Below, one piece after another: positions 2,118 to 43,800 of a DNA stretch of 64,000 nt (its first letter is position 1; every line of letters begins with the position of its first letter). Source of the stretch: Lactiplantibacillus mudanjiangensis (GTDB lineage Bacteria; Bacillota; Bacilli; Lactobacillales; Lactobacillaceae); NCBI RefSeq assembly GCF_005405385.1, contig NZ_BJDY01000003.1, positions 1-64,000 of the forward strand, given 5' to 3'. The translations under genes and the position numbers were made by a program. The notes beneath the pieces are model-generated. The model made no database searches, was not told where the DNA came from, and saw only the letters and a list, made by a program, of their open reading frames with translations.

Positions 2118-2146
2118 TTGCAACCGCTTACATCGTGTGCTATTAT
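2118..2146 (+). promoter_or_regulatory. Promoter of the large structured RNA
   Basis: TTGCAA (2118-2123) and TATTAT (2141-2146) are separated by 17 bp. Transcription is expected to begin near 2152-2154, exactly where the 5' arm of the closing stem begins. Confidence 0.75.
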
Positions 2147-2151
2147 ACTAA

Positions 2152-2786
2152 GTGAGGAAAGGTAATAACCTCGTTAGCAAGCTTCTCAAATAAGTAGATA
2201 TCGTGGCAACGTTAGATATCTAGCTTCAAAAGCATTGGTCGTTACTGAGACCAGTTCAGGCGTCGCTAAGCGTTATCGGTTTAAAGCAAGTTGTAAATTT
2301 CTTTGAATGGCTGAACGTTGATCCTTGAATAAACAGTAACCGCAAGACGATTTAACCGGAGTTATCAAGACTATCTAGATTTTAACGATTTGTTAGGAAA
2401 CAGGTGTCGCCGATGACCAATTGTATGTTCCACTAGTACCAGGTTTTATCAGTTTCAATTGTTTCACAGTTCCATTGTAGCTTAGTATTAAAAGTTTAAA
2501 CGGAGGTGCATGTCTGTTACGAAGACATTCCTAAGTTTTAAACGCGAGTTCGACTTTCGTTAAAACCCGTTTGATGAGTCACGAATCAAGTAATTGATTA
2601 CTTTTGATCGACTAAAGCAGATAGATACAACAAGTACGGGTTAGTCCGTTAGAAGTTGGACGCACGTAAAATTGAATAGCATGAAGGTGTAACACATTAA
2701 GAACAATGAACAACGTGTTCTTGCTAACCAAGGTTATTCCTCATAAATGGGACTCAAGCACGAGAAGCCTTGAGTCCTATTTTTTT
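2152..2786 (+). ncRNA. Large structured non-coding RNA, possible ROOL-class
   Basis: About 635 nt without a credible reading frame, with a promoter at one end and an intrinsic terminator at the other. The two ends pair over some 550 nt: 2152-2157 with 2739-2744, 2164-2171 with 2731-2738, and 2173-2181 with 2720-2728, which is 23 bp in all with small bulges. Local helices inside include 2195-2202/2215-2222, an ATGTCT/AGACAT hairpin near 2510-2530, a GTTTTAAACG/CGTTAAAAC hairpin near 2534-2566 enclosed by AAACGG/CCGTTT, and a nested TACG..GTCC/GGAC..CGTA stem near 2635-2668. Size, the ornate architecture and the host fit the ROOL or GOLLD giant RNA classes of Firmicutes; ~600 nt favours ROOL. 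The class assignment is inference, while its existence as a discrete structured RNA is directly supported. It is not inside a visible prophage. Confidence 0.8.
2750..2786 (+). terminator. Intrinsic terminator of the large RNA
   Basis: GGACTCAAG (2750-2758) pairs with CTTGAGTCC (2769-2777) and is followed by a T tract (2780-2786). Confidence 0.9.
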
Positions 2787-4001: not shown

Positions 4002-4421
4002 ATGCCAAAATTCAACATTACACTCATCAGCCCTAAACGCGCTAAAGCGATGCTGACAGAATATAAAGAACAACGTAAAAATTCCGTCCCACACTTAGCT
4101 CATCCGGGTCGTTACATTTTACCGGACTACAAGCTAACCCGACGACGGGCAGCCTTTAAAATCGTTAAACATACCTTTTTAACGCCGCATTATAAATCTT
4201 ACGTGGCTTTAGATTCTGATAACGGCCATACACTCTGGTTACATAACTTTGGTTCACTAACAGAAGCTTTGTTCTGGCTAGAGACTGGCTTAAAAATCAG
4301 TGATACTGATTCACATTCGAACTATAAAGAATGGGTGTCCAAGCACATTGATGAAATCGAAACCTTCAAAACGGCTTTGCGGGACCGTAAAAAAGCTAAA
4401 TCTCAAAAAGCCACAAAATAA
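4002..4421 (+). CDS. Conserved hypothetical protein, basic and cytosolic
   Basis: A 139-residue protein I do not recognise. The reading frame is open much further upstream, but that part covers a terminator. The ATG at 4002 is chosen because AAAGGGAG (3987-3994) is well spaced before it. The protein is rich in Lys, Arg and His, has no membrane segment, and ends in a Lys-rich tail (DRKKAKSQKATK), which could suggest nucleic-acid contact. It stands alone between two terminators. Confidence 0.7.
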   Translation: MPKFNITLISPKRAKAMLTEYKEQRKNSVPHLAHPGRYILPDYKLTRRRAAFKIVKHTFLTPHYKSYVALDSDNGHTLWLHNFGSLTEALFWLETGLKISDTDSHSNYKEWVSKHIDEIETFKTALRDRKKAKSQKATK

Positions 4422-4427
4422 CCAGCA

Positions 4428-4463
4428 AAAAAGACATGACCATTAGTGATCATGTCTTTTTTT
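4428..4463 (+). terminator. Intrinsic terminator
   Basis: AAGACATGA (4431-4439) pairs with TCATGTCTT (4450-4458), followed by a T run. Confidence 0.85.
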
Positions 4464-4481
4464 ATTCCCCATATCACGAAC

Positions 4482-4709
4482 CTATATCCCTTTTGACCTT
4501 GAGCCAAACTGCAATGGCGTTACCCGCTTAAACATCCCCATGCGTACGCCAACTTGCCAACGCACTGGCATTTGCTTAGCAACTGTGGTCGGTTGCTCGA
4601 ATTGCCATGACTGACCTAACGTTGGTAAGTCCCGCACGCTGCGTTCAGTTGAACCGCCTAAGACCAGGCTAAATCCTAAAACTACCATTGTTTTGGTTCC
4701 TAACCGCAT
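4482..4709 (-). CDS. Small hypothetical protein, possible signal or membrane segment
   Basis: A 75-residue reading frame starting at ATG 4709, with AGGTGGG a few bases upstream. The N terminus (MRLGTKTMVVLGFSLVLGG) looks like a short hydrophobic or signal segment, and the rest is polar and basic. No family is recognised. It could also be a remnant of a longer secreted protein or a chance frame, hence the low confidence. Confidence 0.35.
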   Translation of the reverse strand: MRLGTKTMVVLGFSLVLGGSTERSVRDLPTLGQSWQFEQPTTVAKQMPVRWQVGVRMGMFKRVTPLQFGSRSKGI

Positions 4710-9953: not shown

Positions 9954-11636
9954 TTAACCTTTAGATTGTTCTACTGAAATAAAATCAAAGATTGTTTGAT
10001 CAAACAAACCGCGATCAGTAAGTTTCAACGTTGGAATCACGGGTAACGTTAAAAATGACAACGTGATAAACGGATCAAATGGTAACGGCGTCTCACAAAG
10101 TTGATCGTAAGCCTGTTTAAGCGTTGTTAATCGTTGCGCCGTCGTTTGATAAGTGGTGGCAGACAATAAGCCACCAACTGCTAACGGCAAATCCGCCATG
10201 ACTTGGTCGTCATCAACAACCGCTAGTCCCCCATCGGTAGCAGTAATTTGTTCAATCGCTCTTAGAATCGCCGCATCCGATGTTCCAACCGCGACAATGT
10301 TATGGGCATCATGCGCCACGGAACTGGCAATTGCCCCATGTTTTAATCGAAAGCCGTGTACTAATCCGACCCCAACCCGGCCGGTTTGATGATGACGTTC
10401 GACCACGACCATTTTTAAAATATCCTGGTCCAAGTCAGCGACAAATTGTCCGTCAACTACAGGTACCGTCTTCACCAAATGATCGGTTTCAATATGGTTA
10501 GGCTGCACTCCAATGACATTCACTCGGTCGTGTATTAATGGTAAGGCTAAATCGGCTAAAGTCGCGTGATGCTGAATCTTAGTCGCTGTAAATGGAAGCG
10601 GTTTGGACTTAACCACCGATTCAACCCACTGGCCGGTCTTCATCGTCTTCGCGATTTGGACCGTCTCAACGTGATCTAATACCACCAGATCCGCTAATTG
10701 TCCTGGTGTTAGGCTACCACGGTCACTTAAGCGATGTGCGCAGGCCGCGTTATAGCTCGCTAGGGTATACGCCAATGCTGGACGCATGCCACTGGCAATC
10801 GCCAATTTCACGTTATAATCGATTGACCCTTCCGTCATCAGATCCGCAATCGTTTTGTCATCAGTACAAAAGGCAAACCGACTGGCATTAGCTTCGGTCA
10901 CTGCCCCAATTGTGGCTTGCACATCGCGTTCGACCGTCCCCTCACGTAAAAAGACCATCATGCCAGCTTGCACTCGATCCAGCGCTTCTTGTACTGTTGT
11001 GCACTCATGATCAGTATCAAGCCCCGCGTTGCGCATGACTGCCAATTGTTGCGGCGTTAACCCAGCCGCATGTCCATCCGCGTGATAACCAAATGTCTGT
11101 GCATCATGAATCTTAGCCATCGTATCTTCATCACCGCGGGCTACCGCGCCGTAATCCATCACTTCAGCCAACCCGCGTACTTCCGGTTGCGCATAGAGTG
11201 GTCGTAAATCGGCTGCATGCAATGTGGCGCCATTATCATCAAATGGCACACACGGTACCGATGATGGCAACATGAAAAATACATCCAACGGTGTTTGCCG
11301 GGCATCGTCAATCAAATACTGAATACCCGCTGTTCCAGCCACATTAGCTAGTTCATGGGGATCGGTCGCAATCGCAGTCACGCCGTGCGCTAACAAGACT
11401 TTACCGAGTTCACTTGGCGCAACTAACGAGCTTTCCATATGCACATGCGCATCAATCATCCCTGGTACAATCCATTGCCCCGTCGCATCTACTCGCTGAC
11501 GAGCGTCATAAGGCGCATCCACTAAATTACTGACCACGTACCCTTGATCGATCCAAAGACTCGTCTTTTCAAATTCACGCGTCAACGTATTTAAAACCTG
11601 AGCCCCTGTAATCACCATATCGACTGTCTTTTTCAT
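9954..11636 (-). CDS. ade: Adenine deaminase
   Basis: A 560-residue amidohydrolase that converts adenine to hypoxanthine plus ammonia in purine salvage. The metal-binding motif DAHVHMESS near residue 62, the DPHELAN segment, HADGHA and the substrate region FCTDDKT are characteristic of bacterial Ade rather than adenosine deaminases. The enzyme is usually Mn- or Fe-dependent; Mn fits this host. It is monocistronic, start ATG with GGAGAAACC upstream. A guanine-type purine riboswitch with a terminator precedes it, so expression should fall when guanine or hypoxanthine is abundant. Confidence 0.93.
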   Translation of the reverse strand: MKKTVDMVITGAQVLNTLTREFEKTSLWIDQGYVVSNLVDAPYDARQRVDATGQWIVPGMIDAHVHMESSLVAPSELGKVLLAHGVTAIATDPHELANVAGTAGIQYLIDDARQTPLDVFFMLPSSVPCVPFDDNGATLHAADLRPLYAQPEVRGLAEVMDYGAVARGDEDTMAKIHDAQTFGYHADGHAAGLTPQQLAVMRNAGLDTDHECTTVQEALDRVQAGMMVFLREGTVERDVQATIGAVTEANASRFAFCTDDKTIADLMTEGSIDYNVKLAIASGMRPALAYTLASYNAACAHRLSDRGSLTPGQLADLVVLDHVETVQIAKTMKTGQWVESVVKSKPLPFTATKIQHHATLADLALPLIHDRVNVIGVQPNHIETDHLVKTVPVVDGQFVADLDQDILKMVVVERHHQTGRVGVGLVHGFRLKHGAIASSVAHDAHNIVAVGTSDAAILRAIEQITATDGGLAVVDDDQVMADLPLAVGGLLSATTYQTTAQRLTTLKQAYDQLCETPLPFDPFITLSFLTLPVIPTLKLTDRGLFDQTIFDFISVEQSKG

Positions 11637-11667: not shown

Positions 11668-11795
11668 AAAAAAGCCGCCGGACCCCTCCCGGCAAATTGA
11701 GAGAGAGATCCAGCGGCTCAATTCGCTTATAGTCCAACCTTTACGGGGTTGGGTAGAAACTCGCCGTCCATATTACGGCATTATATAGGCAATTG
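11668..11795 (-). promoter_or_regulatory. Purine riboswitch (guanine type) with expression-platform terminator
   Basis: On the minus strand the aptamer (11719-11795) shows the conserved core ATATAAT-x-x-CG, ATATGG, GAGTTTCTACC, CCGTAAA and GGACTATAA. The position equivalent to nt 74 of the xpt aptamer is C (GACTAT, where adenine aptamers have GATTAT), predicting guanine/hypoxanthine rather than adenine binding. It is followed by a terminator: GCCGCTGGATC pairs with GGTCCGGCGGC, then six T (11668-11719). Ligand binding should free the terminator and stop transcription of ade. Confidence 0.92.
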
Positions 11796-11980
11796 TTGTT
11801 TAAGTTATTTTTTGGTTGTCAGTAACCTTAGCAAAATTTGCGCATAAATGCAAACCGTCACCTTTAACTTTCAGCCCTAAAAATTATCATCACCCAGTGC
11901 ATGACTGCCATAGCCTAGTGACAATGAAAGCGATATAATGTTCATGAATAATTTAATAATTAAAGGAGCTGGACTTAACT

Positions 11981-40887: not shown

Positions 40888-43800
40888 CTAGTTATGCCGC
40901 CGTTTCCGACCAATTCCAAACCAACTTACCACACCTGTTAAGGCCAGCAAAGTCAATCCTAACGCTGAAACATTATGCGTTTGATCTTCATCAGTTTGTG
41001 GTAACTGTGCAACCTTTTTTTTATTAGCAGTGACCACCGCAGCTGACACAACCGTGGTCTTCGCTAACACCGTTGGTTGTTGATTAGCACCATGACTTGC
41101 GGTTGTACCTGGATTGATCGTGTCACCATCACCATCGGGATTAACTAACGTGTTTTCATCAGTTCCCGGATTAATCGTGTCGCCATCACCGTCAGGATTG
41201 ACAGTCGTGCCATCATCACCTTGGTTGACCGTGTCACCGTCACCATCAGAATTAGTGGTTGTGCCGCCATTATCATCAGTATCAGTTGCCGGTTGAACGG
41301 TAATCGCGGCGGTCTTCGTGTACGTGTTACCCGCAGCATCAACATAAGTGTACGTCACTTGGTAGCTACCAGCCGTTGTCGTATTGACTTGACCGCTGAC
41401 GGTTACCGCGCTTAAAGTCAGGGTTTGACCTGTAGCATCAGTGGCTTGAACAAAATTATCTGCGGCCGTCCAAGTACCACCTGCTGTTAACGTACTGTCT
41501 TTAACCGTTAAACCAGCTTGGCTCTTAGTGACCGTCACCGTAATCGTTTGCTTAACGACGTTGCCTTGGTTGTCTGTATACGTATACGTGATTGGGTAAC
41601 TACCCACTTTGGTGGTATCGACAGTCCCACTAACTTTGACTTGGCTCAGATCTAACGCTTGACCAGTCGCATCTTTTCCAGCCGTTAAATTATCCATCAC
41701 AGTCCATTTCGTCGTAGGCCCGGCAATCAACGTACTATTTGTCGTGGTTAACCCAGCTTGGGTCGCGGCAACCGTAACAGCAATTGTTTTGGTGAAGACA
41801 TTACCCGCGCCATCCGTGTAAGTATACGTGACGTGATAAACACCGGCCTTTGTCAAATCAACCGTATCGCCACCAACCGTGACAGTCGTTGCTGCCGTTG
41901 ATTGACCGAATTCATCAGTGACGGTAACGGCCTTAGTCGCATTCCAAGACGCATTTGGCCCTTGAACAATCGTTTGATCATTGGCATTTAAAGCCGCTTG
42001 ACTCGCCACCACTGCCACATTAGCAACTGAATTAGTCGTGTTACCTTGGCTATCAGTGTACGTATACGTAATCGTATTGTCGCCAATTTTACTCAAATCA
42101 ACTTGACCACTAACTGTGACGGTCGTGCCATCAGCCCGCAAGTAACTGTACATAATGGACATTACCCGCGCACTATTGACTTGCACGTCATTTTTCAAAA
42201 TCACATCATCAGCTGCAACCGTATCACCATTAGCTTGAATCACCGAAACCAAATTATCCTGTGCCTGCCAAGTGGCATTTGGCCCCATGATGATAGTGCC
42301 GTCCTTAACGTTTACATGTGCGACTGATTTAATCACATGAATCGTGGCCGTAGTCGTGGCCGTGTTACCGGCTGCATCAGTATAAGTCAGTGTCACTTCA
42401 GTATCGCCAACTTTCGTCAAATCCGGCGTTGCATTGGTCGTGACTTTAGCTAATTCAGCGGCCGTTAATGCATGACCATCGCTTCCAGTGGCACTGGCTA
42501 AACTATCTGAAACTTGCCAATTGGCGTTCGGTCCCATGATCACGGTGACATCTTTGCCGGCTAAGTTTACTTGACTGGCAATGACTTTGACACTAATCGT
42601 GTAAGTATGCGCATTGCCTTCGCCATCCGTGTAAGTTAATGTCATTGGATAATCGCCAACTGTGGTTAAATCAGGGGTAGTGCTAGTCGTTAATTGGAGT
42701 GTCTTCAAATCCGTCACAGCGTCGCCATTAAAATCAGTCGCGCTAATCACATTATCTAAGACGTTCCAAGTGGCATTTTGACCTTTAACGATTTCGATAT
42801 TCTTAGTGACTAAACCGGCTTGACTCGCAATCACATTGACAACAACATCGGTCGTCACTGTATTACCAGCCGCATCAACGTAAGTTAACGTCACGGTTTG
42901 AGCGCCCGCTTTACTGGTATCTAACGTTGAACTCGTCACGCTCGCCAGTTCAGTCACATCTAAAGCTTGACCATCAGCATTTAAACTCTTAGTTTGATCA
43001 ACACTATCACTTGCTTGCCAAGTTTTTGAGCCTTGGTTCACACTGACGGTTTGACCAACCAATACCGCCTGGCTATTCACTATCGTAACAGTGGCATCAG
43101 CTGTTCGGGTCACCCCTTTATCATCTGTGTAGGCTAAGATCACCTGGTAAGTTCCGGCTTTAGTTGTTTCGACCGTATCACCAGTTGCCGTAATGACATC
43201 TGTCGAAACGGTGCTTAAGTCAATCGCATTACCATCAACGTCTTTCAATGACGCAACACTATCTTTAGCCGTCCAAGTTGTCTTAGGACCCGCAATTAAG
43301 GTGATATTTTTCGCCGTTAAATCAGATTTTGACGTAATGACTTCCCAAGTATAGGTGATTGGTGCAGTAAAGTTGGTTGTCCGACCCTGATCATAAGCTG
43401 CCATTAATTCAGCGCTCGTGTAAGTCTTGCCATCGGTATCGATCCATGAACCCGTGTATTGATCGGTCACTTTGATTGCTGGTAACGTCACAGTATCTTG
43501 ATAAGGATCACCAAAAATATTGACACCAGACGTTTGTAAATTAACCGTTGGACTTAAGGTCAAGGTGCTTAAACTCGTTGCCTTAAGCATGTCCGTCATT
43601 GACGCGACATTCGTCATATCAAAGCTCGATAAATCTAAGCTAGTCACCGCTGCGCCGCTAAACATCGCATACATATCGGTTACTTGGCTAGTATCAAAGC
43701 TGCTCAAATTAAGTTGTTTGATACTTGTATCACTGAACATGCTATTCATTGACGTCACATTATTAGTCTTAAAATGACTGAGGTCTAGCGACTCAAGTCC

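Follow-up and report, generated by a model that had tools for sequence, protein, structure and literature searches.

To our knowledge, only a handful of giant RNA families have been described in bacteria, most of them with the function still open. ROOL and GOLLD (RF02032) are the large RNAs to which the locus described here had been likened. Decoy RNAs of the CsrB/RsmZ type are built from repeated hairpin modules. Oligomers of ROOL, GOLLD and OLE use kissing loops, according to the available part of PMC12286853. For 6S genes of lactic acid bacteria, a catabolite-responsive element (cre) over the -35 box has been described in about one third of the species and was read as repression by CcpA (PMC8414754, text available in part). 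The L. plantarum supermotifs (LPSMs) are described as RNAs of 800-1000 nt, present in multiple copies and limited to L. plantarum (PMC5643018, text available in part). Searches of the open-licence literature, in the portions of text available, showed no description recognisable as the RNA of this locus, which is not proof of its being unpublished; the lactobacillus terms looked for are absent from the main text of PMC11109978.

The window, a stretch of 64,000 nucleotides from Lactiplantibacillus mudanjiangensis, carries near its beginning a unit which, on comparison of sequences, is well supported as the gene of a real large structured RNA family absent from Rfam 15. The following features were located:

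2118-2786, + strand: RNA unit; promoter, closing stem, internal helices and terminator are all present
2118-2132, + strand: putative CcpA operator (cre) TTGCAACCGCTTACA over the -35 box; exact fit to the consensus
2138-2146, + strand: extended -10 box (TGCTATTAT); spacing to GAGGAA fixed in 21 of 21 genus members
2153-2181, + strand: 5' strand of the closing stem P1 (TGAGGAA ... AATAACC ... TTAGCAAG); from fold, inverted repeat and energies of own versus swapped ends
2182-2187, + strand: CUUCUC, which is predicted to pair with the terminator loop; pairing score 6 or higher in 48 of 59 units
2188-2500, + strand: variable 5' module region; helices 6-11 with 13 of 17 compensatory pairs
2502-2528, + strand: GGAGGUG element with AUGUCU/AGACAU hairpin; GGAGG in 57 of 60 units
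2670-2692, + strand: conserved 3'-core motif AAUUGAAUA ... UGAAGGUGUAA; from alignment A1, with UGA(A)GGUG in 56 of 60 units
2720-2743, + strand: 3' strand of P1; same three lines of evidence as the 5' strand
2745-2786, + strand: intrinsic terminator; its loop holds GAGAAG (2762-2767)

The first-pass annotation had read the locus as a stand-alone, ornate RNA with its own promoter, a long-range closing stem and a terminator, and conservation together with covariation supports this reading. The promoter TTGCAA-17-TATTAT was recovered at 2118-2146 with an extended TG. A match to the promoter consensus alone is no evidence, because 11 sites were observed against 11.8 expected by shuffling; the unit is more than a chance arrangement because it is conserved in the genus and covaries. 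The transcript would start near 2152-2153, and reckoning from promoter to terminator gives a size of about 634 nt. The terminator also stood up to inspection, with 14-nt arms (2745-2758 and 2769-2782) of 93 % complementarity, a T run ending at 2786 and a compensatory change at one pair of the stem in six of 15 sequences. As claimed, the unit has no open reading frame of note: the longest frame overlapping it measures 39 aa on the minus strand, and inside lies one frame of 17 codons (2510-2563, + strand). The position outside any visible tRNA cluster or prophage agrees with zero tRNA in the window and no blastn match to the unit in 72,556 plasmid and 50,697 phage records. The suggested host location is supported by genus-wide conservation and, as far as phages and plasmids were searched, by these records.

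The unit was present by blastn in all 21 Lactiplantibacillus genomes, with 74-86 % identity for the best piece in each of the other genomes and a match split into pieces in three of them (G007, G018, G019); in the family, blastn detected it in 31 of 301 genomes. The genome of the window has a single match by blastn and by profile. This profile, R1, covers the last 178 nt and was built from 24 sequences without structural information. At E <= 0.01 it matched 70 genomes out of 397 Lactobacillaceae, spread over 15 of the 40 genera. After inspection, 61 genomes in 12 genera were accepted as carriers: 21 in genus g1, 11 in g5, six in g34, five each in g15 and g25, four in g26, three in g22, two in g21 and one each in g3, g11, g12 and g13. 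The locus sequence was retrieved for all 61; L092 and L093 were accepted by their 3' part, the other loci also by promoter, end pairing or motifs. Named relatives with the unit are Pediococcus stilesii, P. argentinicus and P. acidilactici, Secundilactobacillus oryzae, S. malefermentans (two copies) and Paucilactobacillus wasatchensis. The remaining nine matched genomes were judged chance hits: G061, G118, G143 and G166 had no cre and, by eye, probably lie antisense to a coding gene, while G070, G172, G259, G238 and G200 were dropped for the missing cre. A second match of genome G022 (L113) was discarded as being of the same kind as the first four. Five Pediococcus genomes (G094, G256, G190, G209, G226) hold a second, divergent family copy of about 500 nt at another locus (L094-L096, L103, L110).

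Beyond the family little was found. A class-wide search of 398 genomes gave, besides the own genome, a single weak match (G1062, E 3.5e-4), which was rejected as a member since it has neither cre nor GGAGG; a promoter-pattern scan over 395 genomes of the order matched ten, all of them Lactobacillaceae. A short core motif was followed in 80 of 87 stretches: R1 gave 78-126 bits for 18, each of Lactobacillaceae origin or part of a MAG labelled uncultured Lactobacillus, and at most 20.8 bits, or nothing at E <= 0.01, for the other 62. A viral or mobile origin was rejected, as R1 scores no higher than 15.4 bits on any of 18 viral contigs found with a short motif.

Counts of end pairing, loop pairing, cre and conserved words refer to a set of 60 units that includes 16 of the 21 Lactiplantibacillus units. 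L011, L012, L015, L020 and L021 stand outside it, having failed strict promoter or terminator patterns, and were counted in the coding-frame test, as were their genomes in the 21-genome cre count; L092 and L093 stand outside the set as well. L110, cut by a contig end, is absent from the P1 and loop counts and L040 from the P1 energies, for which the terminator positions of L080 and L115 were set by hand.

The claimed closing stem was found, at 22 bp in the predicted fold instead of 23, with 2153-2181 pairing to 2720-2743. Its arms at 2160-2181 and 2720-2741 (22 nt, 73 % complementary) form an inverted repeat longer than any other in the unit. Across 58 units from 12 genera, the mean P1 energy was -27.0 kcal/mol with the own ends, -16.7 kcal/mol with the 3' ends of other groups and -12.0 kcal/mol with internal windows. 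Group means favoured the own 3' end in 14 of 15 groups, which points to a closing stem re-made across genera. None of the ten main Pediococcus units had a foreign 3' end that equalled its own. The exception is g12, where 36 of 57 foreign ends at least equalled the own one; single units of other genera also tolerated many foreign ends, up to 22 of 42 in g1, 33 of 52 in g34, 12 of 56 in g21 and 12 of 55 in g25.

The whole RNA folds at -162.4 kcal/mol (z -2.8), better than 20 of 20 shuffled sequences. RNAalifold, applied to 15 of the 21 Lactiplantibacillus units, proposed 141 pairs, 17 of them with compensatory change, and 98.2 % of the cells are paired in this structure. Covariation supports the fold within Lactiplantibacillus: in 57 cells the two sides had both changed, compared with 20.1 (sd 3.7) in shuffles that ignore the relatedness of the sequences, pairs with compensatory change numbered 17 against 10.4 and the covariation score was 0.142 against 0.102. 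Sliding the structure by one to three columns reduced the changed cells to 0-7, a control that favours the structure because it came from the same alignment. Further pair types did not exceed expectation (64 versus 62.3; 142 of 500 shuffles were equally high). Most of the compensatory pairs fall into the 5' helices 6-11. Most helices of the 3' core are nearly invariant in the genus, thus within-genus covariation cannot test them, and helix 13, a proposed helix that would pair the GGAGG element, had zero compensatory change. Automatic consensus folding of 3' parts from several genera returned no base pair, so that the support for the fold is confined to the genus.

Unit length varies from 423 to 1101 nt in the family. 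Hairpin modules occur in g34 in one, two, four, six and two copies (L083, L084, L085, L087, L088), spaced by 63-88 nt; the sixth unit of this genus, L086, has one module by motif and longer repeats about 113 nt apart by self-comparison. The 1101-nt Lactiplantibacillus unit L019, which contains a short run of N, repeats part of itself, and self-repeats occur in four of six Pediococcus units tested. Over all genera, repeats in the 5' part were seen in ten of 21 units tested; the other 11, the unit of the window included, had no repeated module.

The cre consensus is TGNAANCGNWNNCA. The promoters of Lactiplantibacillus carry it at the same place throughout, exactly in 17 of 21 genomes and with one mismatch in four, as expected of a member of the CcpA regulon. 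In the mixed set, 51 of 60 units fit the strict cre and nine fail, among them three of four from g26, a count biased because most units were chosen with the cre pattern; the 21-genome count is free of this bias. By the evidence of the operator, the unit is probably under catabolite control. The cre-type promoter is also found elsewhere: in G061 (g3; L038, 1501-1820) it stands with TTGAGGAAGGC before a seemingly different unit of about 280 nt with its own terminator, and in G022 the scan matched a promoter of this kind (L046; pattern match only). These two may represent a second cre-controlled RNA.

We propose, with a probability of roughly 0.58, that the unit represents a new RNA family whose members are large, structured and catabolite-controlled, act in trans and serve as scaffold or decoy when the carbon supply is poor. 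By comparison of the family members, the promoter would deliver a trans-acting RNA with closing stem, 3' core, one or several 5' modules and, in most cases, a loop-pairing terminator. CcpA would repress the gene in the presence of a preferred sugar, and the RNA should accumulate once this sugar is exhausted. P1 and the loop pairing may clamp both ends and thereby prolong the life of the RNA; the modules together with the conserved GGAGGUG and UGAAGGUGU elements may hold a partner at several places. The final step, to a scaffold or decoy at poor carbon supply, is drawn by analogy and suggested by clamp, modules and conserved words.

The pairing of the terminator loop bears on a rival reading, a homo-oligomeric RNA in which this loop pairs with the P1-adjacent strand of another molecule and yields dimers, chains or cages, ROOL/GOLLD-like without kinship. 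The loop sequence GAGAAG is complementary to CUUCUC, located directly 3' of the 5' strand of P1. Corresponding zones pair in most units when G-U is scored as half a pair and the loop is extended by a few bases of the stem to either side (loops of L040, L080, L106, L109, L114 and L115 were placed by hand). In all six g34 units both sides were altered together to CUCCUC/GAGGAG, and the match extends to nine pairs in g11 (UUCUCGCAA/UUGCGAGAA) and eight in g25 (GCCUUCUC/GAGAAGGC). No internal 28-nt window scored equally in 44 of the 48 pairing units; in L030, L035, L081 and L106 internal windows did as well. Geometry favours partners in trans, since the loop lies at the outer and its partner at the inner end of the 22-bp P1, a distance that a straight hairpin with 14-nt arms would not reach, and the kissing loops of ROOL, GOLLD and OLE (PMC12286853, in its available part) provide a precedent by analogy. 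A bent P1, however, would permit the pairing inside one molecule, and 11 of 59 units lack it, namely those of g12, g13 and g26 (0 of 4), four of five from g15 and the divergent Pediococcus unit L082. We regard oligomers as possible but rather improbable. The more far-reaching version, a new class of giant RNA that assembles head-to-tail through the terminator loop, evolves by tandem modules, forms sugar-switched multivalent assemblies and is kept in the host genome, is speculative and to be doubted somewhat more. A promoter under cre, and conserved words that could lie exposed, would also agree with an antisense-type RNA of oversized body that regulates mRNAs of carbon metabolism. Its size, its covarying global fold and its module repeats seem to exceed the needs of a base-pairing RNA, and we consider this reading unlikely.

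The conserved words themselves lend some weight to a ribosome decoy, in which GGAGGUG next to AUG and UGA(A)GGUG would mimic initiation sites and hold 30S subunits at carbon shortage. GGAGG was found far more often than the 19.6 units expected by shuffling, UGA(A)GGUG in 56 of 60 units against 2.2 expected, and GGAGGUG is complementary to the 3' end of 16S rRNA; the 16S-end pattern was searched in the draft genome and was not found. Both motifs may instead be structural, the spacing of GGAGGUG to AUG is just 3 nt, and in Pediococcus, Secundilactobacillus and Paucilactobacillus GGAGG is not followed by a start codon, so that a ribosome decoy is quite unlikely. These same units weigh against a dual-function RNA whose 17-codon frame is translated. 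The frame starts inside the GGAGGUG/hairpin element, is open with GGAGG and ATG or GTG in 19 of 21 genus members and has counterparts at the corresponding place in g13, g15, g22, g25, g26 and g34. Its variable columns are spread as 3, 5 and 6 over the codon positions and four synonymous changes face 12 non-synonymous ones; a conserved frame with synonymous bias was not found. The peptides differ between genera and L020, L021 and L106 have no start codon either. The coding potential was rejected for lack of this signature, and a translated frame is very improbable. Least credible of all is a leader or attenuator of the aldo/keto reductase (Pfam) encoded downstream, whose frame begins about 40 nt past the T run and for which 19 of the 21 genus members have a match within their 1.5-kb flank. 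A strong terminator lies between unit and reductase, the gene is more than 1 kb away in L003 and L004 and missing from the flank in L014 and L015, and six Pediococcus loci have the longest downstream frame (mechanically called) on the opposite strand; with downstream contexts differing in other genera, the leader was rejected.

Upstream of the unit a beta-lactamase-family protein is encoded (Pfam). At 4002-4421 (+ strand) follows a 139-aa protein with no Pfam match, whose relatives in Lactiplantibacillus, Pediococcus and Secundilactobacillus are 54-86 % identical. It was matched in 13 of 30 genomes, near the RNA in Lactiplantibacillus and Pediococcus and on other contigs in two Secundilactobacillus genomes; in the examined genomes of g3, g11, g12, g13, g15, g22, g25, g26 and g34 there was no match at E 1e-5. 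Patchy and unlinked in Secundilactobacillus, it probably reflects an old neighbourhood, and it was dismissed as a conserved partner gene. Elsewhere in the window are a purine riboswitch (11710-11808, - strand; Rfam, 73.2 bits) upstream of a 560-aa frame (9954-11636, - strand) for a putative adenine deaminase, and an imperfect tandem repeat at 41111-41254, of either 57 bases (2.6 copies) or 30 bases.

The scaffold or decoy RNA proposed here occurs in every sampled genome of a tractable genus of food bacteria and as a single copy in the genome of the window, and the cre signal says when to look for it. Genus-wide presence, tractable hosts and cre thus make the question of giant-RNA function directly testable, with the terminator-loop pairing and the variable module number as two well-defined targets for mutation.

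Kinship to ROOL or GOLLD, suggested by the first-pass annotation from length and layout, was not supported. In Rfam scans neither family appeared in 1950-2830 (E up to 10) or in 20 relatives (E up to 0.5), where the sole match was a tRNA at a locus edge, and membership was rejected on this negative result in 21 members, with a positive control that covers the ROOL model only: the same library gave ROOL 130.4 bits on the L. salivarius megaplasmid. At gathering score, Rfam 15 had no match in the unit; a lax scan gave four sub-gathering matches, none to a large-RNA family. R1 did not match the ROOL stretch of the megaplasmid, on which, at 4367-4597 (- strand) of L228, an rli28-like RNA was also seen (49 bits, gathering 45).

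With ROOL (RF03087) the unit shares the character of a large structured non-coding lactobacillus RNA made as its own transcript; it differs in location, since the control ROOL lies on a megaplasmid and the unit has no plasmid match. GOLLD resembles it in a length of several hundred nucleotides, an ornate fold with long-range pairings and a name that covers Lactobacillales, but the unit has no Rfam match to it and the window no tRNA. Like CsrB/RsmZ RNAs, the family varies in the number of its hairpin modules, as would be expected of a multivalent decoy by analogy, whereas the unit is larger and has a 3' core; the sequences were compared through Rfam only. Among the named RNAs of Lactiplantibacillus, the LPSMs, which are long, intergenic, transcribed and structured, come nearest. 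They are set apart by their published description (PMC5643018, available in part) and not by sequence, namely by many copies versus one in the own genome and by limitation to L. plantarum versus 12 genera. To the Rfam 6S models the unit has no match. The 6S RNA of lactic acid bacteria, 160-200 nt long against about 634 nt here, likewise has a cre over the -35 box in about one third of the species and hence the same control logic (PMC8414754, in its available part).
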